DNA from: Bacteroidetes bacterium HLUCCA01
GTDB lineage: Bacteria > Bacteroidota > Rhodothermia > Balneolales > HLUCCA01
NCBI GenBank assembly: GCA_001314545.1
Contig: LIHN01000021.1
Span: forward strand, 1-64,000
DNA length: 64,000 nucleotides
Direction of reading: 5' to 3'
The position numbers and the translations under genes are program-made. Each line of letters starts with the position of its first letter. Positions within the stretch are counted from its first letter, which is position 1. The notes under the pieces are model-generated. The model was given only the letters and a program-made list of their open reading frames with translations. It was not told the DNA's origin and searched no databases. Shown piece by piece: positions 15,801-48,373 of this stretch.

Positions 15801-16336
15801 GTCCCGGGTGCTTTTGAAACCCGGTCCGGCGCTGACGTGTCTTGCGGCGCAGCGTCGCCCGATCCGACGGCAGCGGGGTACGGATTACGCTGATGCAATT
15901 CCCCGCATGTATCACCCCCGGCACCCCCCGACGCATAATCACGCTGATGTAGTTCCCCGCCAGTTTCGCCCCCGGCCCTGCGGGCAATGCGTTCAACCCA
16001 TCCGTTCAGGTGCGACCATGCCCGGGTGCCGTCGTCTTCATCCAGCAGGGTGTACAACATCCATTGCAACTGCGATTTATCCAGCAGGGAACGTCTGGCA
16101 GCCGGTTCCAACGCCTCAAACTGCTCCCTCAGCCAGGCGGCAGGCAGCATAAAACGGAGATTGGCACTGATACCGCTCGCATCGGCAATCTGAAGCTGCA
16201 GCCAGCGGGCCATATCCATATTCGGCACCAAAATGGTAATCGGTCGGAAGGGATGGGGGGGCGTATGCCGGTTAATTTCCCGGATAAAAGCCCTCACTAA
16301 CTCTTGATGTGTGGAAGCGGTGTAGCGGTATATCAT
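12821..16336 (-). CDS. recC: RecC, exonuclease V gamma subunit
   Basis: An 1171-aa catalytically dead helicase-like subunit that scans for Chi and scaffolds RecB and RecD. Recognisable features are the N terminus ITILVPNMDMARWLQLQIAD followed by ISANLRFMLPAAWL, RSLNLVGTRYKVPDVLDWLE in the middle, and a C-terminal LTDLQQFFRDPVKSLL region. It is the first gene of recC-recB-recD. A hydrophilic insert near residues 118-180 contains two tandem copies of an 18-residue unit built around GELHQR, which the E. coli protein lacks. The length is close to the family norm. Its promoter should lie in 16337-16520. Confidence 0.92.
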   Translation of the reverse strand: MIYRYTASTHQELVRAFIREINRHTPPHPFRPITILVPNMDMARWLQLQIADASGISANLRFMLPAAWLREQFEALEPAARRSLLDKSQLQWMLYTLLDEDDGTRAWSHLNGWVERIARRAGGETGGELHQRDYASGGAGGDTCGELHQRNPYPAAVGSGDAAPQDTSAPDRVSKAPGTDGRVSGGFSAAISRARWDIASQIADAFDQYIMYRPEWLLSWEGTLVQNDVTGKQPDPREVRWQSALWKELVNRWPQVPNRAGLWYRFMQESGGSAGESNTAVFAFGLAALPLPVMKAIARHARRNEWYWFLQRHAVAPDSYFAGLDLYSRQQEEAFREVVEEEGVDAGVTRCDADVKPAPPRNNLQRVQGVAAGGPALPLDEADTGSIRIHVCHSARREVEVLHDYLLDLFETTEVRPGDVAVVTPDPDAYRPFVEEVFPASRQPMALHVAGARRGVGEAGTDVMLRSLNLVGTRYKVPDVLDWLETGPVLGDLTDRTGLRHTLHNWVMRQRIRWGIDPGQLQRAGFPLSGRHTWQHGIDRLLLSWLAAEGEDVVVGDLLTGSTVAGQETGALLGRLATVINALASLQHHSETPHTIPRWCDILSDFATQIFTESEDGRQYAGPFRAALLSLQEQAAQLNLTAPVSFPVLRSYLSGILDTTGLGRAWNPGTITFTGMVALHQLPFRVVAILGLNDGKLPGKTPVSAFDLIPQSPRPGDRSRRDADRQLFLDYLLTPDTRLHLSYTGMRQKDNKELAPSVMLTMLEDLLAEQFPREQTSFITKLKTVHALQPFSPKYFREPTSPRFSYSRKYRDLAAESGRSRRARKPLFETWRSDITPPTELTLTDLQQFFRDPVKSLLRMQPGIQLDDADVPGESAEPFDFDHLTGWTVRTQLMRTWAESGELAYADLQTYLRRDGLLAEGQAGKRQMNRLIAEIKAFTGYMQEKIGERPALTPLEVDATVRSASGTTYRIAAAFPYVHEQTAWTFEAGKGDTGVAEYKVFRAWLQHLVLNLQHHMVSRSVFRDIREFAFRPLTPQEASSRLTDIMTFFEEGYRRPIPFFPACMKLYLNHIRDGISPEIALQQIEEELTVTDHFKVPEHVRETNTTWIAEAFGDESPVLQDASKTLCTPELVREPLQPADLDQYQLFSLMASRVTDVMHRDLLDKTELAAL
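15887..15988 (-). repeat. tandem 54-bp duplication inside recC
   Basis: The sequence ACGCTGATG and its following ~40 bases occur at 15887 and again at 15941, a 54-bp (18-codon) period with scattered differences. In the protein this gives two units of the form GG-E/D-T-x-GELHQR. It is an in-frame expansion in a probably disordered loop. Confidence 0.7.
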
Positions 16337-16445
16337 GGACTAAACATCGTCTGATTAAGGGATATTGTCAAATATCGCTTAATGGTATGAATACCGCCAA
16401 AGCAAAATGAATTTTCAGATACCTCGCAGTGCCCGCCTGCCTGCC

Positions 16446-16541
16446 AAAACCCGTACTATATCGTCCTGGAATTTGGCGGATTAAAGGCCGGAAAACACTA
16501 TAAAAAAGCTCCCCAAAACCCGCACTAAACCGTCCTGGAAT
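16446..16541. repeat. 27-bp direct repeat spanning the hemN 3' end
   Basis: Copies at 16446-16472 and 16515-16541 differ at only three of 27 positions. The right copy contains the last codons and stop of hemN; the left lies in the hemN-recC spacer. The two are 69 bp apart. The spacer (16337-16524) holds no other supported feature. Confidence 0.75.
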
Positions 16542-17892
16542 ACGATCGCTGCTCAATATTTTCAGGAAGGTAGGCATCAAAGACCATGGCGATATTTCGC
16601 ACAAAAAGCCTTCCTGCCTCGGTAACATTAACCCCCTTACTGTCGCGCGAGACCAGCCCGTCGGCCACCAGTTCGTGCAGGCGTTCCATTTCCCGTGAAA
16701 AGTACGCCCGGGAATCGATCCCGTACTGACGGTCAACCTCCGACCATACCAGTTTTTGTCCGCACATCAGCTGCATAATCACATCCCGGCGGATGGCGTC
16801 ATCGTTGGTCAGCCGGTACATTTTAGTCACAGGCAACTCGCCGCGGTCCAGGGCTTCATAGTAGGTATCCAGGTCTTTATGGCGCTGCGTCATGACCGGA
16901 CCAATCTGGGATATAGCCGATACCCCGAAGGCCCAGGTGTCAGTGCCGGCCCGGGTGCTGTACCCCTGAAAATTGCGTTGCAGGGTGCCGTCTTGTCGAG
17001 CTCGGGCCAGTTCATCACCGGGCAGGGCGAAGTGGTCCATGCCGATGTAGACGTAACCGGCCTTGGTGAGTCGCTCAATGGCAAACTGAAGCATCTCCAG
17101 CTTTTCGTCCGGTTTGGGCAGGGTATCATCTTCAATGAGTTTCTGGGCCGGAAACAGTTTGGGCATGTGGGCGTAGTTGTACACCGCCAGCCGCTCCGGA
17201 CGGAGCGACAAAATCTGTTCGATGGTGTTGGCAAAACGCTCCGGCGTCTGCATCGGCAGTCCGTAAATCAGGTCCATGTTTACCGACTTGAACCCGGCTT
17301 TGCGAAGCCATCGGGTTACATCACGGTTCTGTTCAAAGGGTTGAATACGGTGGATGGCCTGCTGAACTTCCGGGTTGAGGTCCTGCACACCGATGGAGGC
17401 CCGGTTGAAACCGATTCCCCGAAGTACCTGAACCTGGGCATTGGTGACGTAGCGAGGATCCATTTCCACGCTGCATTCGGCATGGGGATCAAAATTGAAA
17501 TACTCCTGGAGTTTCAGGCTGAGTCGCATCAGCTGCTCGGGCGACAAAAACGTGGGGGTTCCGCCGCCCAGGTGCAGTTGGGTTACACGGTGGCCTTCAG
17601 GTAACCGGCGCGCCGCCAGGGCGAAATCTTTCTCCAGATAGTCCAGATAGGTATCCGCATCCGATGATTTGCGGGTGATGACCTTGTTGCATCCGCAATA
17701 CCAGCAAAGCGACCTGCAAAACGGCAGGTGAATATAAATAGAGATGTCTTTCCCGGGTTCAACTGCCAACTCAATGGCAGTCTCCACCCCCTTCAGATCA
17801 GAAACGGGTGCCAGTAAAAGGGCGGTAGGATAGGAGGTATAACGAGGACCCGCAACGTTGTACTTCTTGATAAGAGTTGAGGTCGGTAACAT
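16525..17892 (-). CDS. hemN: oxygen-independent coproporphyrinogen III oxidase (HemN)
   Basis: A 455-aa radical-SAM enzyme that decarboxylates two propionates of coproporphyrinogen III to give protoporphyrinogen IX without oxygen, in the cytosol. The 4Fe-4S/SAM motif is C59-x3-C63-x2-C66 followed by G-C68, as in HemN rather than HemW. LHLGGGTPTFL, VEMDPRYV and GVQDLNPEVQ follow in order, and the C-terminal winged-helix-like domain (RRDVIMQLMCG) is complete. I chose ATG at 17892, before LPTSTLIKKYNVAGPRYTSYPTA, which matches the family N terminus; an in-frame ATG at 18039 would add an unrelated 49-residue extension. It is divergent from a cytochrome gene, with an FNR/Crp-like palindrome between them. 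Confidence 0.94.
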   Translation of the reverse strand: MLPTSTLIKKYNVAGPRYTSYPTALLLAPVSDLKGVETAIELAVEPGKDISIYIHLPFCRSLCWYCGCNKVITRKSSDADTYLDYLEKDFALAARRLPEGHRVTQLHLGGGTPTFLSPEQLMRLSLKLQEYFNFDPHAECSVEMDPRYVTNAQVQVLRGIGFNRASIGVQDLNPEVQQAIHRIQPFEQNRDVTRWLRKAGFKSVNMDLIYGLPMQTPERFANTIEQILSLRPERLAVYNYAHMPKLFPAQKLIEDDTLPKPDEKLEMLQFAIERLTKAGYVYIGMDHFALPGDELARARQDGTLQRNFQGYSTRAGTDTWAFGVSAISQIGPVMTQRHKDLDTYYEALDRGELPVTKMYRLTNDDAIRRDVIMQLMCGQKLVWSEVDRQYGIDSRAYFSREMERLHELVADGLVSRDSKGVNVTEAGRLFVRNIAMVFDAYLPENIEQRSYSRTV

Positions 17893-18044
17893 AGTTCTTT
17901 GCAGTATATTGGCTTTTGGCGAAACAGCACATCCACAAACACCTGTAATTTTGTGCTGCTGCAACGGTTTTTCAGGCTTTTCTGGAATTAAAATACTCAC
18001 CGGCCCCCAAGCCTCATAATATTGCCCCTTATCTTGCAAACAAA

Positions 18045-18056
18045 TGATGATTATCA
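18045..18056. promoter_or_regulatory. FNR/Crp-type palindrome TGATGATTATCA
   Basis: TGAT-N4-ATCA is the core of the FNR/CRP-family consensus (TTGATnnnnATCAA). It lies in the 374-bp spacer between hemN and the divergent cytochrome lipoprotein, both redox genes that such regulators often control. The outer consensus bases do not match, and the site is 153 bp from hemN and 211 bp from the cytochrome start, so it is only a candidate. Confidence 0.35.
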
Positions 18057-18266
18057 GGCAAGAAATGTTAATTCCGTTGCATTTCAGCTCAACGCAGACC
18101 CTGAAATCTGAACGCCTGCGTGAAGATTATATACCATCAGGGCATTTTTCCGGTTGAGCTTTGCCCCCTTCCTGCCTACATTGCTATACATTATCTGGTT
18201 CGCGCGCATACAATGCCACATACGTGTTCATTTCCTGCACGACCTGCACACTCACCCCCCTATACT

Positions 18267-18740
18267 ATGATCAAGCACCCCGCTATTCTCCTGATTGCAG
18301 GCACCCTGACCCTGGCAATCCTCCTTCCGGCCTGTATCAGCAACACCTATGAAAAAGAAGTAGTGGAAGTTGCCGGTCCCGGACTGGCCACCCAGATGAA
18401 CAGTATTCAGCACTGGTCGCACAAACTCGGCCTTTCTGTGGAAGCGGAAAATATGGAGCTGACCGATTTCTACCTGCACGAGCTGGAGGAAGCCGCAGAA
18501 TTCCTGATAGAAACCGTGGAGGAGTACGATGGGTACCCGATAGCAGAACTGACTCAGGTTAAACTGGTACCCGGTCTGGAGGCCCTGGAAGCAGCCGTGG
18601 ATTCGGGCGAATGGGAACAGATACGGCGCGATTATACCGGTCTGGTGGCTTCTTGTAACAGCTGCCATACCGCAACCGACCATGGTTATATTGTGATTAC
18701 CGAAGGCTACGGCAATAACCCGTTCAACCAGGAGTTTTAG
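18267..18740 (+). CDS. c-type cytochrome lipoprotein
   Basis: A 157-aa protein with a lipoprotein signal (IAGTLTLAILLPAC, lipid-modified Cys23) and a single heme-c motif CNSCH at residues 130-134 near the C terminus. The middle is helical and acidic, suggesting a four-helix cytochrome c'-like or cytochrome b562-like fold in which CxxCH near the C terminus is typical; this fold call is an inference. It would sit on the periplasmic face of a membrane and carry or sense electrons. I chose ATG at 18267 because the signal peptide starts there; an upstream in-frame ATG at 18120 adds 49 residues unlike any leader. It is divergent from hemN. Confidence 0.8.
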   Translation: MIKHPAILLIAGTLTLAILLPACISNTYEKEVVEVAGPGLATQMNSIQHWSHKLGLSVEAENMELTDFYLHELEEAAEFLIETVEEYDGYPIAELTQVKLVPGLEALEAAVDSGEWEQIRRDYTGLVASCNSCHTATDHGYIVITEGYGNNPFNQEF

Positions 18741-18898
18741 ATCGATACCTGCAGCTGATCAGATGCTGAGCGTGGTTTAAACACATTGCACCGGTGCTAC
18801 AGAAGACAGACCGTATCGCAACGACCTGAGGACCTGGTATGGATTTACAAGACCATCGCTGCATCGGGGTAGCCAGCCCGGGACCGGTTATAAAACGA

Positions 18899-19720
18899 CT
18901 ACTCCGATTCCGGATCGTTCAGCACCTCACGCATATCCTGAATATGCATGCCGATTTCGTTGCGCACTTCAAAGATCCGTTCATGCAAACTGCGGTAATC
19001 AACCAGTCGCATAAATTGCCGATTTCGGAGTCCGGGAAGTAGTTCGAGAATACGGTTGGCACTATTGAGAGCACGCTTACAGTAGGCGATATTCCCGCCA
19101 AGTACATCCAGGTCGTATCCGAAGGCAAACCCGCCGGCAATCTTGGTACCCAGATTCACGGTTTCAGTGACCAGCTCAATGAAATACAAATCCTGCTCGC
19201 GTTCCGGAACCAGTTCGGCCAGCTTGAGCATTTCGGCAGCCAGCATACGTGATTCTTCGTAAATCTGGTTGTACTCATCGGCGTCAAAGAGGTCGTCATC
19301 CTGAAGGTCTGCCATTTCCTGAACCCACATCGATTCGGAAATGCCATCGTTTTCAAGGGCCTGGCGATCAGCGTGGCTCAGACTTTTTTTCCATTCCTCA
19401 CCATCGTCCATATCCTCAGCATCGTCCCCCTCCTCGCCGCTCATGAAGAAGTCGTCCAGCTCATCATCTTCATCGTCTTCCCAGTCGTCATCGTCATCCG
19501 GGAAATACGCATCTTCGAACATGAGCTCATCTTCAATGTAGGCATCGATGGCGTCTAACTTGGATGGATATTTTTTCAGGAAGCGGGCCCAGCGGGGCAT
19601 GTCTTCCCCGAGGTTGCTTTCAATGAAAGACCGAAGTGCTTCGCTTTTCTGTTCCATTTCGGTAAGATGAGCCTCCCACTGGAATTCATCCCAGATTTCG
19701 TCATCTTCGTATGAACGCAT
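18899..19720 (-). CDS. conserved-looking acidic protein of unknown function
   Basis: 273 residues with no domain I recognise. The first 75 residues look helical (MRSYEDDEIWDEFQWEAHL and on). They are followed by a very acidic low-complexity run (about 74-110, mostly Asp and Glu) and then a helical C-terminal half with ordered hydrophobic spacing (MLAAEMLKLAELVPEREQDLYF, KIAGGFAFGYDLDVLGGNIAYCKRALNSANRILELLPGLR split over several helices). There is no signal peptide or membrane segment. It follows the purine nucleoside phosphorylase gene but is separated from it by a terminator. Cytosolic and probably alpha-helical; no function proposed. Confidence 0.75.
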   Translation of the reverse strand: MRSYEDDEIWDEFQWEAHLTEMEQKSEALRSFIESNLGEDMPRWARFLKKYPSKLDAIDAYIEDELMFEDAYFPDDDDDWEDDEDDELDDFFMSGEEGDDAEDMDDGEEWKKSLSHADRQALENDGISESMWVQEMADLQDDDLFDADEYNQIYEESRMLAAEMLKLAELVPEREQDLYFIELVTETVNLGTKIAGGFAFGYDLDVLGGNIAYCKRALNSANRILELLPGLRNRQFMRLVDYRSLHERIFEVRNEIGMHIQDMREVLNDPESE

Positions 19721-19754
19721 AGCGTTGGTTCCTCAGGCAGTTTGGCTGTATAAA

Positions 19755-19783
19755 AAAAGGCCGGTGTTTAACGCCGACCTTTT
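19755..19783 (-). terminator. terminator after the purine nucleoside phosphorylase gene
   Basis: On the minus strand AAAGG-T-CGG pairs with CCG-GCCTTT, followed by a run of seven T. It separates the phosphorylase operon from the acidic protein gene. Confidence 0.75.
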
Positions 19784-19791
19784 AAAGATAC

Positions 19792-20628
19792 TCAGAGTCG
19801 CTCAAGAGTGCCAATCATAACTTTGGTCATCTTGGGCTCGGCCATATCGGCCGCCTCCAGAATGTGCTTCATGTCAACGGGTTCAAGCGCATCCGGGAAA
19901 CATTCATCGGTAATTACAGAGATGCCAAGGGTTTTCATGCCCATGTGCACGGCAGCGATGACTTCCGGCACGGTACTCATACCTACCACATCACCGCCGA
20001 TCTGACGCAGAAACCGGTATTCGGCTTTGGTTTCCAGGTTCGGACCGGTTACGGCTACGTAAACACCGTGATGCATTTTAATGGCGTTATCAAGGGCAAC
20101 CTGGTCGGCCAGGTCGATGAGGCTGCGGGTGTAGGGTTCGCTCATGTCCGGAAAGCGCACACCCAGGTCATTGTCGTTGGCCCCGATGAGGGGATTATCG
20201 CCCAGCAGATTGATATGATCGGTGATACACATGATGTCACCCCTGCGGAAATTGGGGTTCATCCCGCCGCAGGCATTGGAGACCAGCAAGGTATGGGCGC
20301 CGTTGGATTGCAGCACACGCAGCGGGAATACAATCTGCTGCATGGTGTAGCCCTCATAATAATGAAACCGACCCTGCATGGCTACTACCGTTTTACCGCC
20401 AAGTTTGCCGAAGAGGAGTCTGCCGGCATGACTTTCTACCGTGGAAACGGGAAAATGGGGGATGTCTGCGTAGGATATGGAGGTTTCGACGTCAATTTGT
20501 TCAGCCAGCCGACCAAGGCCGGTACCCAGAATGATTACGTATTCTGGTCGGGACTGTGTTTTTTCCTGTATAAACGAAAGCGCTTCGGAACGCTTGGCCC
20601 GGAACTGGGCAACGGTTTCTAAATGCAT
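19792..20628 (-). CDS. punA: purine nucleoside phosphorylase (trimeric PNP-I type)
   Basis: A 278-aa enzyme that phosphorolyses inosine and guanosine to the base and (deoxy)ribose 1-phosphate in purine salvage. The phosphate loop [13 protein letters not shown], the phosphate/purine segment [16 protein letters not shown], the motif GRFHYYEGY and the signature [24 protein letters not shown] are all present, as are [11 protein letters not shown] and the base-contacting [12 protein letters not shown]. The length fits the trimeric class (about 270-290) rather than the hexameric DeoD class. It lies 17 bases after a DivIVA-domain gene in the same direction and is probably co-transcribed with it. Confidence 0.93.
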
Positions 20629-41287: not shown

Positions 41288-41374
41288 GCCCTGGTGGTGA
41301 AATTGGTAGACACGCTATCTTGAGGGGGTAGTGCTGGCAACGGCGTGCTGGTTCGAGTCCAGTCCAGGGCACCA
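41288..41374 (+). tRNA. tRNA-Leu (anticodon GAG), attachment site of the 7-kb element
   Basis: A type II tRNA: acceptor GCCCTGG with CCAGGGC, a D-arm, anticodon stem CTATC/GGTAG around TTGAGGG giving anticodon GAG, a variable arm, and T-arm GGTTCGAGTCC. The terminal CCA is encoded, but the last two bases (41373-41374) lie beyond the repeated att sequence and so come from the element side. The 3' 21 bases recur at 48353-48373. Confidence 0.94.
41352..41372 (+). other. attL (21-bp core, 3' end of tRNA-Leu)
   Basis: Identical over 21 bases to 48353-48373. It begins in the T-loop (TTCGAGTCC) and ends in the acceptor/CCA (GGGCAC), the usual core for tyrosine integrases that use tRNA genes. Confidence 0.9.
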
Positions 41375-41383
41375 ATAAACAAG

Positions 41384-41416
41384 CTAACTCATTGAATTGC
41401 AGTGAGTTAGTTTTCT
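41384..41416 (+). terminator. terminator just inside the left end of the element
   Basis: CTAACTCA pairs with TGAGTTAG around an 11-base loop, followed by TTTTCTTGTT. It would end transcription from tRNA-Leu, replacing the chromosomal terminator now at 48385-48422. Confidence 0.75.
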
Positions 41417-41418
41417 TG

Positions 41419-41438
41419 TTACCAATAGCGTTACCAAT
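41419..41438 (+). repeat. paired TTACCAAT direct repeats, left end
   Basis: TTACCAAT at 41419-41426 and 41431-41438, separated by four bases (12-bp period). The same pair with the same spacing and orientation is at 48225-48244. Probable integrase or excisionase arm sites. Confidence 0.6.
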
Positions 41439-41476
41439 TTTCTAAAAAAAACAATCCCTGCTGGTACCGTTGGTCT

Positions 41477-41524
41477 AATCTAAAATGTTTTGTTTGGCCG
41501 TCATTTTTGACATTATTGACAGCC
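41477..41524 (+). repeat. 48-bp inverted repeat, left copy (TGTCA/TGACA half-sites)
   Basis: Matches the reverse complement of 46889-46936 at 41 of 48 positions without gaps. The first 18 bases are identical, four of the next five differ in a small cluster, and the last part has TTGACATT and TTGACAGCC repeats. Non-coding here. See the right copy for interpretation. Confidence 0.85.
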
Positions 41525-41585
41525 GTTCAGAATACACTACTGAAATTCATATATTGCCGGTGTGGTTACCAGCGTATATGGTGTG

Positions 41586-41630
41586 AAGAGGCCGGTCTCA
41601 TGTGGTGTGAGTAACGGCCTCTTTCTATTT
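41586..41630 (+). terminator. hairpin with T-rich tail next to the last element gene
   Basis: AAGAGGCCG (41586-41594) pairs with CGGCCTCTT (41615-41623), and the plus strand continues TCTATTT. The stop of the leftmost element gene overlaps its right end. It may block readthrough in either direction, although the minus strand lacks a T run. Confidence 0.5.
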
Positions 41631-41829
41631 ATGGCCTGCGCTGATATTCGTGCAGATAGGTGCCATTGCCCAGCTGTACCGTGCTGATACGTTGAAAGCG
41701 TTCCGGGTGCCGTACCTGTTCGGCTGAGCCCACAATGTGCCGGTGTATTTCAGGTACCTGAATTGAATCCCTGCCGTGTTCGATTGCTTCCAGCCGGTGT
41801 AACCGCTTTAGTAGGGTTATGTTTGCCAT
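41629..41829 (-). CDS. 66-aa unknown protein, paralogue of its neighbour
   Basis: It starts MANITLLKRLHRLEAIEHG, a short helix or coil, followed by a segment likely to form beta strands and the end YLHEYQRRP. It aligns end to end with the adjacent 67-aa protein (shared MAN, L-x-x-RL-x-x-LE, R-H and E-aromatic-Q/K-R end), so the two arose by tandem duplication. Its start codon shares one base with the neighbour's stop. No family recognised. Last gene of the element's leftward operon. Confidence 0.65.
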   Translation of the reverse strand: MANITLLKRLHRLEAIEHGRDSIQVPEIHRHIVGSAEQVRHPERFQRISTVQLGNGTYLHEYQRRP

Positions 41830-42032
41830 TAGTCGATACGCTTAAATTCACGGATAGTAACCCCAGCAACCCTATTGCCTCCTGGTGGTTCGTGCTTTTC
41901 GGTATCAACCTCGAAAAGGTGCGGAAAGTCTATTTGATCACGATGCCGGATTATGTCCACTACCAGCGTAGGTGCCGGCTTTAGGGTGCGTTCAAGTGAT
42001 TCCAGCCGGGTGAATAGCTTAGTGTTTGCCAT
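41829..42032 (-). CDS. 67-aa unknown protein, paralogue of its neighbour
   Basis: Begins MANTKLFTRLESLERTLKP and ends TIREFKRID. The N-terminal RL-x-x-LE helix and the C-terminal E-F-K-R are shared with the 66-aa protein downstream. The middle (LVVDIIRHRDQIDFPHLFEV) looks like strand-helix-strand. There is no cysteine pair or membrane segment. It starts three bases past the stop of the 81-aa gene, so the small genes are translated as a chain. Confidence 0.65.
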   Translation of the reverse strand: MANTKLFTRLESLERTLKPAPTLVVDIIRHRDQIDFPHLFEVDTEKHEPPGGNRVAGVTIREFKRID

Positions 42033-42035
42033 GAT

Positions 42036-42281
42036 TTACCCTGCCTTGCTGTATGCGTTTGCGGTTTCAAGTTCGGTCAATCGCTTCTCAATGTCCGATA
42101 CTTCTGTAATGCGTGCGTAACTGTTCGCCAACGTTGCAAGGGAATTGATCGCCCTGATACGGCTGTCTGCATCTTTTTTCGTATCGGTATAGATCCGCTC
42201 TAATTCAATCAGCGCTGTACTCATGGAAGCCCGCAGTTCATCCAGCGTTAACGGCTTTCGTGTTCGTCTTAATCGTGCCAT
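42036..42281 (-). CDS. 81-aa helical unknown protein
   Basis: A basic start (MARLRRTRKPLTLDELRAS) followed by three predicted helices (ALIELERIYTD, SRIRAINSLATLANSYARI, VSDIEKRLTELETA). The layout resembles small phage packaging or adaptor proteins, but I cannot identify a family. The leader is CC/ACC-rich (ACCACCTAACCACCTGACCA before ATG) without a Shine-Dalgarno sequence. First of the three smallest genes at the end of the element. Confidence 0.65.
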   Translation of the reverse strand: MARLRRTRKPLTLDELRASMSTALIELERIYTDTKKDADSRIRAINSLATLANSYARITEVSDIEKRLTELETANAYSKAG

Positions 42282-42339
42282 TGGTCAGGTGGTTAGGTGG
42301 TTGTTTATTTTTAAGATACGAAATATCCATAGGGGTTTA

Positions 42340-42398
42340 CATACTTTGCACATATTCAAAGTAGTATGTGCTGAGCCGGTTTCCCAGCCCAGCACATA
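42340..42398 (-). promoter_or_regulatory. two overlapping, mutually exclusive hairpins (attenuator-like)
   Basis: Hairpin A pairs TATGTGCTG (42365-42373) with CAGCACATA (42390-42398). Hairpin B pairs CATAC and TTTG (42340-42348) with CAAA and GTATG (42357-42368). They share bases 42365-42368, so only one can form in full. They lie in the 125-base gap between the 78-aa and 81-aa genes of the element. Confidence 0.4.
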
Positions 42399-42406
42399 AC
42401 CGCCTT

Positions 42407-42643
42407 TTATCGTCTTTTCAATGAGTCGAGAATGGCCTGCCTGTTAGCCTCATACTCTTTATCGCTCATTGATTTTATCTCCTCATCGCTGAAACCAGCC
42501 GTTGCCAATCCGGCCGACTTTTCAGCCTCAGCGTATACCTCAGCAAATTTTCTGCCGGTAGCTCGCTCAATAGCCTGAACATCTCTTTCATTGAATGTGC
42601 CATGTTCGTTCATCAGTTTACTTAGGTCAATTACTGTTTTCAT
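42407..42643 (-). CDS. 78-aa unknown protein
   Basis: An acidic, helical protein (MKTVIDLSKLMNEHGTFNER, then VQAIERATGRKFAEVYAEAEKS and FSDEEIKSMSDKEYEANRQAI). It overlaps the 190-aa gene by four bases (ATGA), so it is translated with it. No domain recognised. Confidence 0.65.
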   Translation of the reverse strand: MKTVIDLSKLMNEHGTFNERDVQAIERATGRKFAEVYAEAEKSAGLATAGFSDEEIKSMSDKEYEANRQAILDSLKRR

Positions 42644-43212
42644 GCTTTGCTGTTTTTAATGGTGAGTATTTGCTCTCGAAATTGTGGATAGGTGAGTTTT
42701 CTCACATTGCCAATCAGGTCAAAATTCAGGTTGAATGGATATGGCACAATGTTATCAGAGTAAATTCCGCTTCCGTCCATCTCCTGCCGGATAGCCTCGA
42801 TATGCTTTGAGTAGTCCTGGAGCTTGTCGGCCGTCTCGATTAGTGCGGTTAGAATCGGCTCTGCTTTCTGCCTGAAATAACTTTCAGCCGGCAGTTTCAA
42901 TGCGGTTTGAGCATCTTTTAACTGTGCCTTGCGAACCGGCAGCAGCTTCTCTGCGACATCCAGCCTCATCTTAGCCTCGTTGGCCTCATCCTGTACTCGT
43001 TTGAACCTGATCCGCATATCCTCTACATTGCGATCCGTTGCCAGGCCAGCCTCAGCATCGGCCATAATGCTCGTGAGCTCTTCGTAAACTTTCGGAATCG
43101 CAGCGGTGGCTTTTTTGTACTCATCCTGCGTTGCCGTTATATTCAGCCGTGCATTGCGTTCGGCTTCTTTGGCCTTTTTAAAGTCGGCCAATGCTTCTTT
43201 ATATGGTTTCAT
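42640..43212 (-). CDS. 190-aa coiled-coil unknown protein
   Basis: Mostly heptad-patterned helix (residues 5-135: EALADFKKAKEAERNARLNI, VRKAQLKDAQTALKLPAES), then a short globular end with PYPFNLNFDLIGNVRKLTYP. Phage scaffold or tail-assembly-like helical proteins have this look, but I find no specific match. The leader has CCACACC and ends ACATACC-ATG. It follows the primase-like gene after 25 bases. Confidence 0.7.
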   Translation of the reverse strand: MKPYKEALADFKKAKEAERNARLNITATQDEYKKATAAIPKVYEELTSIMADAEAGLATDRNVEDMRIRFKRVQDEANEAKMRLDVAEKLLPVRKAQLKDAQTALKLPAESYFRQKAEPILTALIETADKLQDYSKHIEAIRQEMDGSGIYSDNIVPYPFNLNFDLIGNVRKLTYPQFREQILTIKNSKA

Positions 43213-43237
43213 GGTATGTTTGGTTTATGGTGTGGTT

Positions 43238-44269
43238 TTATCCCCAGTCGGCCGGATAGCCTCGGGAGTCGAATATTTCACCGGTATAGGGGTTGAATCC
43301 GTGTGGTGCCTCTCTATCGGTGAAAGTTTGGTAAAACGGCCTCGAGATTTGCTCTGTAAAGGCCGATAAATTTAACGTTGCCAGGTAATCTGCCAGGTCG
43401 AAACCTTTTTCCTGCTCTCCGGCATGAGTTTCAAGTAAATCAGATACGCTGATCCTCGCCAGGTTGCTAAATCGGTCTGCGTAGTGCTGCCAATCCGCAT
43501 AGCATCCGACATCGGGAAATAGCACAACGGATAGACCTGCAACGGATCGCATTTTATAGCTGTTAATGCCCTTTAGCATACCGGTTGCAATCCAGGTGAA
43601 GCTCGGGAAATACTCGGATGCTATGATTGCCGTTTTCTCGCTCTCAACAATGGCAATAGGTTTATTCGAGTCAATCAGGTGGCTACCGTAAAAGCATTGT
43701 ACCAGCTCGAATGAGTCACGTTCCAGGATGCCCTTACGTGCCAATAGCGTATGAATCCAATCGTATGAATAACCGGTCTTTTCTCTCTTGCCGGTCTCAA
43801 CGTTGTATTTGATTAGCTTGCCGGATCGTATTTGACCGTTCTCATCAATCAGCCAATAGATAGGCCAGCCTGCAACGGCCGTTCCTTTTGAACCTGTGCC
43901 GACTTGATACCTCCTCAGCGCTCTCGTTGCAATATCAGCAGACCATCCAGGCAAGTTTTTCAAGTATTGGTGTAGCTGATTAGCCTCATAACTGCCCTGT
44001 GTGGCCTCGAAATATTCCGGCTCAATAGTGCTCGGTTTCGGTGGTTTCGGTACGGTATAGGTCGTTTCTGTGGCTGTGGAATTGCTCAGACCGCCCTGCG
44101 TTGGTGTGACATGATAACCGCATGAGCTTTCACGGTCACATCGGCCAATATCGGGAGCCAAATACGCTTTTGTTTGGGTATCAATGTACCGTACCAGCCG
44201 TTTCTTTCCGCAATTAGGGCATTTGTGCTTTTTGCTGGATGAGTCCAATATGTAACGGAATTGCTTCAT
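43238..44269 (-). CDS. zinc-finger primase-like protein (DUF6371/Toprim-type)
   Basis: A 343-aa protein opening MKQFRYILDSSSKKHKCPNC with a zinc finger of C17, C20, C44 and C50 (KCPNCGKK, GRCDRESSCGYH), typical of phage and plasmid primases. The second half has Toprim-like signatures: PIAIVESEKTAIIAS, SVVLFPDVGCYADW and DLLETHAGEQEKGFDLADYL. Bacteroidota mobile elements often carry this protein next to an SF3 helicase. I prefer ATG at 44269 (the family N terminus) over 44284. The 3' part of the helicase gene overlaps its start, so translation is coupled. Confidence 0.82.
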   Translation of the reverse strand: MKQFRYILDSSSKKHKCPNCGKKRLVRYIDTQTKAYLAPDIGRCDRESSCGYHVTPTQGGLSNSTATETTYTVPKPPKPSTIEPEYFEATQGSYEANQLHQYLKNLPGWSADIATRALRRYQVGTGSKGTAVAGWPIYWLIDENGQIRSGKLIKYNVETGKREKTGYSYDWIHTLLARKGILERDSFELVQCFYGSHLIDSNKPIAIVESEKTAIIASEYFPSFTWIATGMLKGINSYKMRSVAGLSVVLFPDVGCYADWQHYADRFSNLARISVSDLLETHAGEQEKGFDLADYLATLNLSAFTEQISRPFYQTFTDREAPHGFNPYTGEIFDSRGYPADWG

Positions 44270-44273
44270 ACGG

Positions 44274-45833
44274 TCAGCCTCCAACGGTCATAAAGAATAC
44301 TCTGCCGATCTCCTTGCGTTGGTCAAAGAATCCCAGGCCGTTCATGCGTTTATTGAAATTCTTTCGAGCCAATGCCCGTAAACCCTCATCGTAGCAATAC
44401 GCCTTATAGGATTGATATAACTCCTGAGATCCTTTGTAGTGCTCAGTATGAGGCTTAAAATTTCGCTCATCAACGAACATCGCAACGGAGTCGGCCTCCT
44501 TTTTGTAGGTTTCAAGTGCTTTGTTAGATGCCTCACAACGGCTGAAACCGCCCTGCTGCAATAGTCGTGAGAGTCCATCCAACACCCAATTGAATACGCC
44601 AGGCAACTCTCGGTGGATAATCTTTTTCGGCAGATCAGGATCCCTGTTTTCAGGTTTGATATAGACATCGAACGGAATGATTAGAAACCGTTCAAAGTAT
44701 GCTGCTGTGTGCTCGACATCGGCCGGCAGCTGGTTTGTGTTAAAAGCAAACTTGCAAACATTGGTGAGCATGAATGGATCTCGATACGGTAACCGTGCCT
44801 CTATCGGCTCACCGGATGCCAGCTGTTTAAATGTATTGCTTTGGAGTCGGTCACCTATGTCAGATGCCCAATTAACCAGCTTACCTGATAGTTTGGCTCG
44901 GTAATATCCGGACTCATCGGTCAGATTCGATAGACTGTAATAGGTGATGTTCTCATCGCCCAGCATTGCCCGAATAATTTCAAACAACACGGATTTGCCG
45001 TTTCGACCGGCTCCATACAGAAACAGCACCTTTTCCAGCTTCATGCCTCGGGTAAACAGATAACCCATAAATTCAGCCAACACTTTACGGCTCTCCGGAT
45101 CCGGCAGAACCTCCTCCAGGTACCTATGGAATTGCGGAGCCTTTGCTTTGGAGTCGTACCGGAATTGCAATTGATAGGTGAGGAAATCTACTGCCTTTGG
45201 TGGTCTGAGCTCCTGGTACTTTGGAGTGATTTCAAACGTACCATTGGCCAGGTTAATGAGTACAATTTCAGCATCATACTCCGGAGCCGGTAGGTGAGCG
45301 CTTGTTGCAAACTGTTTGAATAGCTTGTCTTTAAATTCGTAATACCTGGATTTGAGCTTTTCAACACCCATGCGTTCAGCTGCCTCGCCAATGAAATTTT
45401 TCAGCTCAGGCTCATCAACACGGACCCAATGCGTGCCGGTGTAAACGTAGTAGTAACCCTGGTGCATACATAGACCCCAGCCGTTTTCTGTGGCCGTCTC
45501 GAGTATGATTTCAATGGCAATTACTATACGGTGCTGATCGGTAACTCTTCGGCTCTCGATACGCTTTTGTAGGCTTTGCATCCGTTCCGATTTCTCTTTC
45601 CGCTCCTGGTTGGTACCTTTTATAGGCTTATCAGCAAGGTATTTAAACAGCTCGTCTCTCTCGTGTCTTTCGGCAGCCTCCTCCGGAAATGCCAGGTTAC
45701 GGAAATCAACTTTCTCGGGTATACTTGATAGCAGTTTCCGGAGTGCAGCAGCAACTATTGGCTGGCCGTGTGGTGAGTCGGCCTGGGTTGCCACTCCGTT
45801 AACGTGCTCTTTCAACGTTTCAGGTGTGATCAT
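44274..45833 (-). CDS. P4-type SF3 helicase/primase C-terminal protein (D5-like)
   Basis: A 519-aa protein. The N-terminal 200 residues are a D5_N-like domain (GWGLCMHQGYYYVYTGTHWV). They are followed by an SF3 helicase with Walker A GAGRNGKSVLFEII (about 273-286), Walker B region KLVNWASDIGDR, the sensor/motif C asparagine in KFAFNTNQLP and FERFLIIPFD. This is the replication helicase of P4-like satellites and related plasmids; it would melt the origin and recruit the host polymerase. It lies between an HTH gene (7 bases) and the primase-like gene (overlap). Confidence 0.9.
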   Translation of the reverse strand: MITPETLKEHVNGVATQADSPHGQPIVAAALRKLLSSIPEKVDFRNLAFPEEAAERHERDELFKYLADKPIKGTNQERKEKSERMQSLQKRIESRRVTDQHRIVIAIEIILETATENGWGLCMHQGYYYVYTGTHWVRVDEPELKNFIGEAAERMGVEKLKSRYYEFKDKLFKQFATSAHLPAPEYDAEIVLINLANGTFEITPKYQELRPPKAVDFLTYQLQFRYDSKAKAPQFHRYLEEVLPDPESRKVLAEFMGYLFTRGMKLEKVLFLYGAGRNGKSVLFEIIRAMLGDENITYYSLSNLTDESGYYRAKLSGKLVNWASDIGDRLQSNTFKQLASGEPIEARLPYRDPFMLTNVCKFAFNTNQLPADVEHTAAYFERFLIIPFDVYIKPENRDPDLPKKIIHRELPGVFNWVLDGLSRLLQQGGFSRCEASNKALETYKKEADSVAMFVDERNFKPHTEHYKGSQELYQSYKAYCYDEGLRALARKNFNKRMNGLGFFDQRKEIGRVFFMTVGG

Positions 45834-45840
45834 GGTGTGG

Positions 45841-46128
45841 TTATTTAGTACGTGGTGTGACTTCTATTGACCGGATGAATCGCATAATTTCGACTCTCGG
45901 GTACAATATTTTGCGACCGTGCTGCGAGAATGGTATCTCGTTACGGTCTCGCATATTCTGTATAGTCCTGGAGCTCCATCCGGTCAACTCGATGAGCTCA
46001 GATGTGTTCAGCCAGGGCTTGCTCGTTGCCTCCTGGATCAACTCGGGGAGCCGATCCTCGACAACCTTAGCGAGCGCTTTCTCGATTGCTTTTTCAAGCT
46101 CATCATGTGTGGCAATGTAGGCCGTCAT
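45841..46128 (-). CDS. helix-turn-helix DNA-binding protein (AlpA/excisionase-like)
   Basis: A 95-aa protein with an N-terminal helix and a winged HTH at 38-85: PWLNTSELIELTGWSSRTIQ, NMRDRNEIPFSQHGRKILYP. HTH_17-type proteins in islands act as excisionases (AlpA) or replication/early regulators. It is the gene before the helicase, as in many Bacteroidota integrative elements. It probably binds sites in the element such as the 48-bp repeats, which is an inference. A stable 7-bp hairpin (46185-46204) precedes it. Confidence 0.83.
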   Translation of the reverse strand: MTAYIATHDELEKAIEKALAKVVEDRLPELIQEATSKPWLNTSELIELTGWSSRTIQNMRDRNEIPFSQHGRKILYPRVEIMRFIRSIEVTPRTK

Positions 46129-46184
46129 AATGCTTCATATTTGTTGCGGTTATTGTAACTGCATCAAACTTAAAGCAATTAAGA

Positions 46185-46204
46185 CCCGTTATTGAGGTAA
46201 CGGG
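46185..46204. promoter_or_regulatory. hairpin/palindrome CCCGTTA-N6-TAACGGG
   Basis: A perfect 7-bp inverted repeat between the 202-aa gene and the HTH gene. No T run follows on the minus strand, so an operator for the HTH protein is as likely as a terminator. Confidence 0.45.
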
Positions 46205-46208
46205 GTTA

Positions 46209-46817
46209 CTATTTTAGGGTACTTTTGTTACGTCTGTATCTTTTTAACGCTGACTGAAAAGACTCAAATGTTGTGTATCTCTTTTCCATCCCCAGCTCAG
46301 TTTGTTCGGAATTCATCTTTGCAAATACAGACTTCCAGGTTTCACCATCCGATCGGCTCTGATAGTACCAGTTAGCCAGCTCGAAAAAAGAGTCCGGCTC
46401 ACGATACCTCTGCCGTAATCGCTCATTCATGTGCTCCGTTAGAATTGGGTTATCATTCCAAACTGAGCTGAATAGCTGCTCATCTTTGTCAATTATACTC
46501 GCATAACGGCTGTATAGTAAATCTCTCTCTGATTTAATGTAATTAATTTGATCTCTTAGGTGCTTAACCAACGCTTCGTTATCAGTACGTGAGATGTAAC
46601 GCTCAATTACATCTATTAAGTCAGTCCATCGCTCATAAGCCAATTGTGCACCATGCTCGATGTGCACTAACTTACTTCCGCCCTGATAAACCTTATCAAT
46701 TAATTCAGGGATTGCTTTTTTTACATATTCTTCGCTATTGACGAATTTTGCGAAACCTCCAAAGATTTCTCTCATTTTCCTACGCTGTCGTTCAAATTCG
46801 TATTCTCTATTGCTCAT
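46209..46817 (-). CDS. 202-aa unknown protein
   Basis: A helical, charged protein (MSNREYEFERQRRKMREIFG start). No family recognised. Residues 65-115 look like a coiled coil (YERWTDLIDVIERYISRTDN and on), and the C terminus is basic (YRRNKSTLK). The leader has three CACACC units directly before ATG. It is the first gene after the integrase in the leftward direction, with the right copy of the 48-bp repeat in the gap. Position alone suggests an early or control role. Confidence 0.7.
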   Translation of the reverse strand: MSNREYEFERQRRKMREIFGGFAKFVNSEEYVKKAIPELIDKVYQGGSKLVHIEHGAQLAYERWTDLIDVIERYISRTDNEALVKHLRDQINYIKSERDLLYSRYASIIDKDEQLFSSVWNDNPILTEHMNERLRQRYREPDSFFELANWYYQSRSDGETWKSVFAKMNSEQTELGMEKRYTTFESFQSALKRYRRNKSTLK

Positions 46818-46888
46818 GGTGTGGTGTGGTTTGGTGTGATTTATGAAATCGGCTCGTATGGCCTGATTTCAATGGTGGTGTAATTGTT

Positions 46889-46936
46889 GGCTGTCAAAAA
46901 TGTCAATAATGACACTTGAACAAAACATTTTAGATT
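46889..46936 (-). repeat. 48-bp inverted repeat, right copy
   Basis: Reverse complement of 41477-41524 at 41 of 48 positions. The first bases include the integrase stop codon; the rest is intergenic. Read on the minus strand it contains TGTCA-N4-TGACA (a small palindrome) and a further TGACA nine bases on. Together the two copies enclose every element gene except the integrase. Paired iteron blocks of this kind serve as ori and crr in P4 (known for P4, inferred here). Confidence 0.85.
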
Positions 46937-48138
46937 CCATCCTCATCGAATATACTTTTCAGTCCATCATCTATATTGTACTCCGATAGGCTCGCCAGGT
47001 ACCGCTCCGTTGTGGCTCTCTTGCTGTGGCCTAATGCGGAGCCAATCCAATCAATATCCATATTCAGAGACCGTGCCCAGCGTGCGAACGTATGCCGTGC
47101 GATGTGGAAAGCGATGTTTGTTTGAATACCGGCCATACTCTGCAATTCTTTCAGCAGCAGATTTACCTGAGCATTGGCTGAATGAGCCTTGCGTTTCAGC
47201 TCTCGACCGGTGAGGCTTTTGTCTTTAATGATCGGGAAAATGAAATCATCCGGAGCGATTTCATCGGTACGGTAATACTCGAGTATTTTCAATGCCTTGC
47301 TGGTCTGTGCAATGCTCTTGCTCTTTTCTGTCTTTCCCATTGTATAGATGAGCCGGCCGTCTACAATACTATTCCAGCGCAGCGTTGCAAAGTCTGTGAA
47401 CCGGATCCCAGCGTTATACATACTGAATAGAAAGTAGTTCCGAACGTGCCATACCAGGGAGCCTGTCTCAATGTCAAGGCTCTCGATGCGCTTAACCTGC
47501 TCCGGTGAGAGAGCTTGCTTTTTGTTTTCTACTGAGCTTACAATCTCAACTTTTGAAGAGGCAAATACATCATTTTTAGTGTAGCTGTTTGCCAGGGCAT
47601 AGCTGAATACATTTTTCAGGCATGAAATATACTTTCTCACCGTGTTTTGGTGGTTGCCGTACTCGGTCATTAGAAACCGCTGATATTCGTTGATTACATC
47701 GGGAGTTATGCTATCAATGGAAATGCCCTTGCCTCGCAGCTCCTCCATCCGTTCAGCTGCATAGCGTATCTGCTTTGGCCGGTGATAACCTCCATCGCTT
47801 GCAAGTTTCTCAGCGACTTCCAGCGCAATGCCTTTGAAATCCTTTGTATCACCGTCTTTCAGCAGATTAGCAATGTAATGCCGGCTCGCTGTCGGATCCG
47901 TTACAACGGCCTCTTGAGCCTGGTGCAATTTCAACTGAATTGTACGGTTGAAAGTTTTGGCCAACGGATGAGCCGTTTTTACCCTGCCTTTGTTCGGATC
48001 CCAAAACGTTTTCTCAACGCTGATTCCGGTTGAAACCAGGCTATACTTGCCGTGCTGAGTCACCCTGATATAGACCGGATATTCTCCGTTCCGCTTCTTT
48101 CGTCTTTCAAGTAAGTATGGTCTAACTGTGATACTCAT
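46930..48138 (-). CDS. tyrosine recombinase (integrase) of the element
   Basis: A 402-aa phage-type integrase. Arm-binding start MSITVRPYLLERRKKRNGEY, SAM-like core-binding domain about 100-195, catalytic domain with R246 (GIRFTDFATLRW), H345-x-x-R348 (HIARHTFARWA), H371 (ALGHSKRATTERY) and nucleophile Y380. All catalytic residues are present, so it should be active. It lies 214 bp from attR and reads away from it; the paired TTACCAAT sites are in that gap. Confidence 0.94.
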   Translation of the reverse strand: MSITVRPYLLERRKKRNGEYPVYIRVTQHGKYSLVSTGISVEKTFWDPNKGRVKTAHPLAKTFNRTIQLKLHQAQEAVVTDPTASRHYIANLLKDGDTKDFKGIALEVAEKLASDGGYHRPKQIRYAAERMEELRGKGISIDSITPDVINEYQRFLMTEYGNHQNTVRKYISCLKNVFSYALANSYTKNDVFASSKVEIVSSVENKKQALSPEQVKRIESLDIETGSLVWHVRNYFLFSMYNAGIRFTDFATLRWNSIVDGRLIYTMGKTEKSKSIAQTSKALKILEYYRTDEIAPDDFIFPIIKDKSLTGRELKRKAHSANAQVNLLLKELQSMAGIQTNIAFHIARHTFARWARSLNMDIDWIGSALGHSKRATTERYLASLSEYNIDDGLKSIFDEDGI

Positions 48139-48224
48139 GGTCTGTGTATTTACATCGGGAAAGTTTCGTCTGGAAAGACTTAACTATATTAGTATGGTAA
48201 TAGGCTGACGGCTCTGAAACCGTG

Positions 48225-48244
48225 TTACCAATCTTGTTACCAAT
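48225..48244 (+). repeat. paired TTACCAAT direct repeats, right end
   Basis: TTACCAAT at 48225-48232 and 48237-48244 with four bases between, matching the left-end pair in sequence, spacing and orientation. Between integrase start and attR. Confidence 0.6.
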
Positions 48245-48352
48245 GGAATATACATACTATTGCGTGAAGTGAAAGCAATTAACCGCAAAATATCCGCTAA
48301 ATGTGCTTTTTAGCCGGTTATGTCACCATGAGATAAGCAACGGAAAGTACAA

Positions 48353-48373
48353 TTCGAGTCCAGTCCAGGGCAC
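48353..48373 (+). other. attR (21-bp core)
   Basis: Perfect copy of attL. The chromosomal base order after the core is ACAAG rather than CAATA, so the ancestral tRNA-Leu ended GGGCACAC and had no encoded CCA; the element supplies it. The remaining parts of 48139-48590 hold the integrase leader and a terminator. Confidence 0.9.

Follow-up and report, generated by a model that had tools for sequence, protein, structure and literature searches.

Gene content and boundaries of the element

The window, that is, the whole 64-kb stretch of DNA analysed here, contains an intact element inserted at the 3' end of a tRNA-Leu(gag) gene and bounded by two copies of a perfect 21-bp direct repeat, TTCGAGTCCAGTCCAGGGCAC, lying 7,001 bp apart. 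The element encodes ten genes, all on the minus strand and all open frames: a tyrosine integrase, p202, an HTH_17 protein, an SF3 helicase, a Zn-ribbon/DUF6371 protein, p190, p78, p81, p67 and p66. The features are given below with coordinates, strand and supporting evidence.

41288..41374, plus: tRNA-Leu(gag), the target gene, with the first att copy within its 3' end (ARAGORN)
41352..41372, plus: att repeat 1, 21 bp, in the tRNA 3' end (repeat search; empty sites in congeners L043 and L044)
41386..41414 (about), plus: hairpin and T-run directly past the tRNA (read from the sequence; inverted repeat I2)
41417..41438, plus: near-end repeat TGTTACCAATAGCGTTACCAAT, possible integrase arm site by presumed function (repeat family D9; 86% match to 48223-48244)
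41476..41523, minus: iteron site B, three 9-bp iterons and an AT-rich box (L003/L005/L046 matrix score 11.3)
41629..41829, minus: p66, RLEALE-type small tail-module protein (open frame; L099 homologue 35%, E 2e-9)
41829..42032, minus: p67, RLEALE-type small protein, probable p66 paralogue (open frame; about 31% identical to p66)
42036..42281, minus: p81, conserved helical tail-module protein (homologues in 10/129 Balneolales genomes; structure model)
42407..42643, minus: p78, small tail-module protein (42% match in L097)
42640..43212, minus: p190, coiled-coil protein of the tail module (weak profile match to L097/L100/L201 coiled-coil proteins, probability 59%)
43238..44284, minus: Zn_ribbon_16 and DUF6371 protein, putative primase (Pfam; NF040506 above cut-off)
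44274..45833, minus: SF3 helicase of the P4-family primase C-terminal type (D5_N, DUF5906, Pox_D5; TIGR01613)
45841..46128, minus: HTH_17 excisionase/AlpA-like regulator (PF12728, 43 bits)
46209..46817, minus: p202, variable second gene (C-terminal part in common with L005 and L077)
46890..46937, plus: iteron site A, opposite in orientation to site B, at the integrase 3' end (L003/L005/L046 matrix score 13.2)
46930..48138, minus: tyrosine integrase with Arm domain and SAM-like domain (PF00589, PF17293, PF13102)
48223..48244, plus: near-end repeat TGTTACCAATCTTGTTACCAAT, possible integrase arm site by presumed function (repeat family D9)
48353..48373, plus: att repeat 2, 21 bp (repeat search; the right flank runs on into the congeners' downstream sequence)

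The first-pass annotation, made from the sequence alone, had described perfect 21-bp att repeats, an integrase with all catalytic residues, an HTH protein, an SF3 helicase and a zinc-finger primase-like protein as a complete integrate-and-replicate unit. The repeats were verified at 41352-41372 and 48353-48373, the domains by Pfam and NCBIfam, and the integrase residues (R, HxxR, H and Y) by eye; the unit so described is supported. The helicase scores 184 bits against TIGR01613, "phage/plasmid primase, P4 family" (cut-off 108.7). In the DUF6371 protein, TOPRIM-like VESEKTA and LFPD motifs can be read from the alignment, and its catalysis as a primase is presumed from sequence; a search by sequence for a relative of solved structure returned none, and the predicted structure (pLDDT 47) was too poor for use.

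No further copy of the repeat with up to three mismatches is present elsewhere in the 64-kb window, and none was obtained in 100 shuffles. As a control, random 85-nt stretches of the window had longest same-strand repeats, at a distance of 5-11 kb, of at most 13 nt. An examination of relatives without the island, as proposed in the first-pass annotation, identified two congeners in which the site is uninterrupted and both flanks join on the same 21 bp (L043, 8858-8878; L044, 2825-2845). The helicase is absent from both, and the host sequence to the right of the element is the original downstream stretch of the tRNA. The element has probably moved since its genus arose. The hairpin and T-run at 41386-41414 probably represent a replacement tRNA terminator brought by the element.

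The remaining six proteins matched neither capsid, terminase or relaxase families nor, convincingly, any defence family in Pfam, PHROGs and PADLOC, and the same holds in NCBIfam for p202, p190, p78 and p81; PADLOC returned just weak coiled-coil-type matches to p190 and a 14-bit match to p78. Profile scans of all ten proteins therefore agree with the earlier statement that structural, conjugation and known defence genes are lacking.

Related elements and the iteron pair

Searching genomes with the helicase defined a clade of six elements, namely that of the window, L002 (continued in L104), L003, L004, L005 and L046, with the gene order integrase, variable gene, HTH, helicase, primase and tail. 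The HTH gene of L004 was detected by tblastn alone and is not in the ORF list, and the L002/L104 join is a deduction from the ends of two contigs in the same genome, where the att pair is not measurable. Both ends are resolved in five elements, including the one in the window, and all of these lie at tRNA 3' ends, measure 7.0-10.8 kb and have exact att pairs; of the other four, whose att repeats are 15-19 nt long, one is in tRNA-Leu(gag), two are in tRNA-Val(gac) and one is in tRNA-Leu(cag). Looking for the same island in relatives had been proposed in the first-pass annotation, and the search provided five further elements of the same gene order, four of them located at tRNA 3' ends. The same geometry is found in L055 (tRNA-Glu) and in the compact elements L097-L100 and L111-L113, which were found by p81 or by the HGG protein (see below), their repeats measuring 12-69 nt. 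At 12 nt, the repeat of L111 carries no weight alone, since random 85-nt stretches reach 13 nt.

More distant elements have the integrase-HTH-helicase-primase core followed by restriction-modification, Druantia-like or E1-E2/JAB genes. The earlier description of an element with no recognisable payload thus holds for this copy, but not for these more distant elements of the same core, which carry defence genes. Given that satellites frequently bear defence genes, according to the part of the literature considered (PMC9122126), the element could be read as a defence carrier, its small unknown proteins forming an undescribed anti-phage system. However, PADLOC gave no convincing match for these proteins, and the tail genes keep a constant, core-like order across many elements, so that we regard this reading as very improbable.

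Within the clade, the best-conserved parts are the replication genes and a 48-nt iteron site, in which three 9-bp iterons are combined with an AT-rich box. The motif was first found via repeats inside the elements and then tested by matrices. With a matrix built from L003, L005 and L046, and hence free of the window, the two window sites score 13.2 (site A) and 11.3 (site B), and the next-best place in the 64 kb scores -20.1; a second matrix was built with the window sites, and its window scores are consequently not independent. The held-out elements L004 and L002/L104, which are in neither matrix, also have the pair (43-59 bits, with other loci at 17 or below). Overall, an inverted pair is present in 6/6 clade elements, with one site at or shortly past the integrase 3' end and the other near the tRNA end, and a third copy in L003 and L005. 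The satellite P4 has a two-part origin, ori and crr, acted on by the P4 alpha protein. By analogy, and considering the iterons, the AT-rich box and the adjoining P4-type helicase, the pair resembles a bipartite P4-type origin and may function as one; a regulatory role of the sites may also be envisaged.

These data bear on whether the element is a decayed prophage remnant, as could be supposed from its integrase and primase families, which are phage-type. The frames are intact, the att pair is exact, empty sites exist, size and order are alike in six elements, the iteron pair is conserved, and p81 of the relatives is under purifying selection (see below), all of which makes a remnant scarcely credible. 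Likewise, the homologues are not scattered decayed fragments, relatives with empty sites are at hand, and no hidden terminase, capsid or conjugation gene was detected in the scans of the unknown proteins, these being the points that the first-pass annotation had named as able to overturn its reading.

The tail module, p81 and the HGG protein

The unknown proteins on the tRNA side belong to a common module, composed of a coiled-coil protein, p78, p81 and the small RLEALE proteins, which is also present in elements with unrelated primases; p190 is weakly tied to the coiled-coil proteins found in other elements. Homologues of p81 occur in 10/129 Balneolales genomes, each within a compact integrase-headed element (in G175 via the L002/L104 join); one such element, L202, has no adjoining tRNA. 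In L097, L099 and L201 the p81 tail accompanies another kind of primase, BT4734-like, together with a protein resembling replication organisers (as matched in PHROGs for L097), and in L098 and L100 other proteins occupy the position of the replication genes. The p81 proteins of L005 and L097 are about 90% identical despite unrelated primases and different tRNA sites, and closely related pairs of p81 relatives have dN/dS values of 0.04-0.09. Judged from the sequences, p81 is under strong purifying selection in these relatives and the tail genes, whose order recurs across many elements, behave as core and not as variable cargo.

The structure model of p81 consists of two helices (pLDDT 81). A fold search against PDB gave no significant match (none better than E 0.19), a search of phage records gave no match, and the 46 pattern matches in IMG/VR included no confirmed relative. 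We also considered p81 as a plain small terminase, and this was rejected on the profile comparison with the HGG family (probability 0.2%) and on the negative fold search.

Five elements (L004, L046, L111, L112 and L113) lack p81 and have at its place in the tail an HGGxSTG protein. This protein is above the NF041373 cut-off in 3/3 cases tested, and its matches to PHROG small-terminase families are partial, strongest for L046 (E 5e-8) and weak or none for the others. HGG relatives are encoded on 187 IMG/VR contigs. Among 80 fetched contigs, 28 were inspected, and in most of those that could be read the HGG gene is directly followed by an ORF of ~430-530 aa. Pfam identified terminase domains in 7/9 such downstream ORFs, the others having no match and a DEAD match. 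Since the viral homologues usually directly precede a large terminase gene, the HGG protein is, by position, probably a small terminase. A tenth protein tested, encoded by the next gene further downstream, matched DUF4055.

In about 15 elements, p81 and HGG never occur together, a mutual absence that is only suggestive, as p81 or HGG served as the query by which most of these elements were found, with the selection bias that this brings. The six helicase-found elements comprise four with p81 and two with HGG. From position and mutual absence, we hypothesise that p81 is a substitute for the HGG small terminase.

The host genome has no match to the terminase models PF03237 and PF17289, and thus no helper prophage by those two. 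This is not strong counter-evidence, because PICMI satellites use virulent helpers, as stated in the part of the PICMI description considered here (PMC10803314). No helicase or primase relative was confirmed in IMG/VR. A 45% helicase match in MT835758.1 ("Bacteriophage sp.", human faeces) was discarded as virion evidence, the contig looking like a bacterial chromosome with an inserted element.

Two further readings have to be weighed against these data. The element may be a helper-free minimal integrative replicon that excises, replicates as a circle from its iterons and reaches new cells through natural transformation, vesicles or chance transduction, with the tail serving replication, copy number or stability rather than packaging. 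The replication genes and iteron sites being the best conserved, the lack of terminase homology in p81, the two negative terminase models and the want of a confirmed IMG/VR relative would all fit. However, the small-terminase-like protein in the tail of five siblings would be needless, and the tail is retained where the replication genes are swapped, so that we see this replicon as unlikely, though still worth considering. Alternatively, as integrative islands of such size are often mobilised via conjugation, a plasmid or ICE, resident or incoming, might transfer the element with the help of a relaxase that escaped recognition or of a sequence mimicking an oriT. The element's types of integrase, HTH and primase are indeed widespread across Bacteroidota, but no relaxase or mobilisation family was found by Pfam, NCBIfam or PHROGs, and the siblings have a small-terminase homologue instead; conjugative mobilisation is, in our view, improbable.

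The first-pass annotation had left two choices, a phage satellite with undescribed hijack genes or a new minimal replicon. The comparative sequence data favour the satellite, as the siblings bear a small-terminase homologue at the place of p81; transfer by phage is still a deduction. We therefore consider it rather probable that the element is an intact phage-satellite-like island, for which packaging by a helper via the tail module is proposed.

Comparison with described satellites and proposed life cycle

The general features of satellites are present: own integration, own replication genes and no structural genes of its own. Many PICIs carry a small-terminase homologue. The window element resembles them in its small size, in integrating and in encoding its own replication genes, and some of its siblings bear such a homologue. 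In this copy, however, no small terminase can be recognised, and the integrase and HTH genes share one orientation. Tycheposons and VEIMEs integrate at tRNA genes with a tyrosine recombinase, and in this general description they may resemble the window element. Both are named as proposed satellites of marine bacteria in the part of the source drawn on (PMC11389934).

With P4-like satellites, the element has in common a P4-family SF3 helicase, an AlpA-like regulator, a tyrosine integrase and iterons in two places, comparable with ori and crr. The helicase is above the cut-off of the alpha-type primase-helicase model PF03288 (23.0 bits, cut-off 21.4) with its helicase part only; P4 has one alpha protein, whereas here the helicase and Zn-ribbon/primase parts are in two genes. 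The P4-like feature list, in the section of the source considered, includes Psu, delta and epsilon, together with the capsid-size gene Sid, for which a custom profile is used (PMC8628076); none of the first three (PF07455, PF04606 and PF10554, respectively) has a Pfam match among the ten proteins. Hence, the P4-style label given earlier is apt for the mechanism (P4-family SF3 helicase, primase, inverted iteron pair) but not for the gene set, with Psu, delta and epsilon absent and the primase a separate gene.

PICMIs of Vibrionaceae, in the portion of their description considered here (PMC10803314), are about 6 kb and without capsid-remodelling genes, and are similar to the element in their core of integrase, AlpA/HTH_17 and DUF5906 primase, their direct repeats and their few genes. 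Among the PICMI model features PF00589, AlpA PF05930/PF12728 and DUF5906 PF19263, the element has PF00589, PF12728 and PF19263 above cut-offs. The PICMI-listed primase DUF3987 (PF13148) is absent from its Pfam matches, the separate primase-like gene being a Zn-ribbon/DUF6371 one. In addition, the host belongs to Balneolales and not Vibrionaceae, PICMIs integrate beside fis and not in tRNA-Leu(gag), and the same portion of the description makes no mention of a tail module or an inverted iteron pair (PMC10803314).

Measured against the published models, the element is neither P4-like (Psu, delta and epsilon absent) nor a PICMI (not at fis). In open-licence papers on satellites or phage-inducible islands of Balneolales or Bacteroidota, covered mostly by title and abstract, no description of such elements was found. 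The family apparently matches no described satellite family, being set apart from P4 and PICMI by those models.

Since some relatives carry a phage DNA-packaging gene, the element probably travels between cells inside the particles of another virus. In the proposed cycle, a helper phage would induce the island, which would excise as a circle. The iterons would then serve the helicase and primase as a two-part origin from which the circle is multiplied, in the way that ori and crr serve P4 alpha. The tRNA-side module (p190, p78, p81, p67 and p66) would divert the DNA-packaging machine of the helper to the island, with p81 as a compact substitute for, or modulator of, the small terminase whose position HGG takes in the siblings. 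The complete account, a new Balneolales satellite family in which the tail protein p81 (81 aa, helical and without relationship to known small terminases) takes over from the small terminase and redirects the packaging motor of the helper, with interchangeable replication modules and one clade using an inverted iteron pair as two-part origin, is advanced tentatively, as possible rather than probable.

If the account is true, the iteron pair would offer a ready means of testing how a split P4-type helicase and primase recognise an origin. In that case, p81 would be a short, testable candidate hijacker of phage packaging, and the lineage would have its own satellites, marked across unrelated integrase and primase types by a compact gene module, by which such satellites would be directly searchable.

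Repeats and arrangements at the integration sites

Close to both ends of the window element, at 41417-41438 and 48223-48244, the same direct repeat (TGTTACCAAT) is present, and similar end pairs were identified at four loci of relatives (L097, L098, L100 and L046). These near-end pairs could be integrase arm sites.

At L112, one of the loci encoding the HGGxSTG protein in place of the tail protein p81, the first element at tRNA-Arg(acg) is directly adjoined by another integrase gene with HTH-type genes behind it (13877-19901); both lie at this one tRNA, which looks like a stack of two elements. At L114 (8473-9460), a protein like that of L046 and an HGGxSTG protein adjoin tRNA-Leu/tRNA-Met, with no integrase or replication genes around them, and this region is probably a remnant.

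The replication core in more distant loci

Five more distant elements (L047, L048, L049, L076 and L077) have the integrase-HTH-helicase-primase core, followed, across the group, by defence genes (type I and type III restriction-modification, a DruE-like helicase, E1-E2/JAB and a metallo-beta-lactamase-like protein). Most of them lie near tRNA-Arg(tcg); an att pair was found for none of the five. The same core is contained in MT835758.1 (L072), together with an OLD/AriA-like ATPase gene. Despite its label, "Bacteriophage sp.", this record seems to be Bacteroidales-like chromosomal DNA carrying such an element.

Primase C-terminus and RLEALE proteins

The DUF6371 primases of the clade (in the window, the putative primase at 43238-44284, minus strand) terminate in the peptide NPxTGEIFDxRGYPxxW, which also ends the BT4734-like primases of L097, L099 and L201. 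The two primase types are unrelated, and the shared terminal peptide looks as if both bound one common partner.

The helicase relatives L056 and L057, from another family of the phylum, share a non-tRNA site near a ruvC-like gene. RLEALE-type small proteins are found at their end too, so this portion of the tail may predate Balneolales and extend beyond it.
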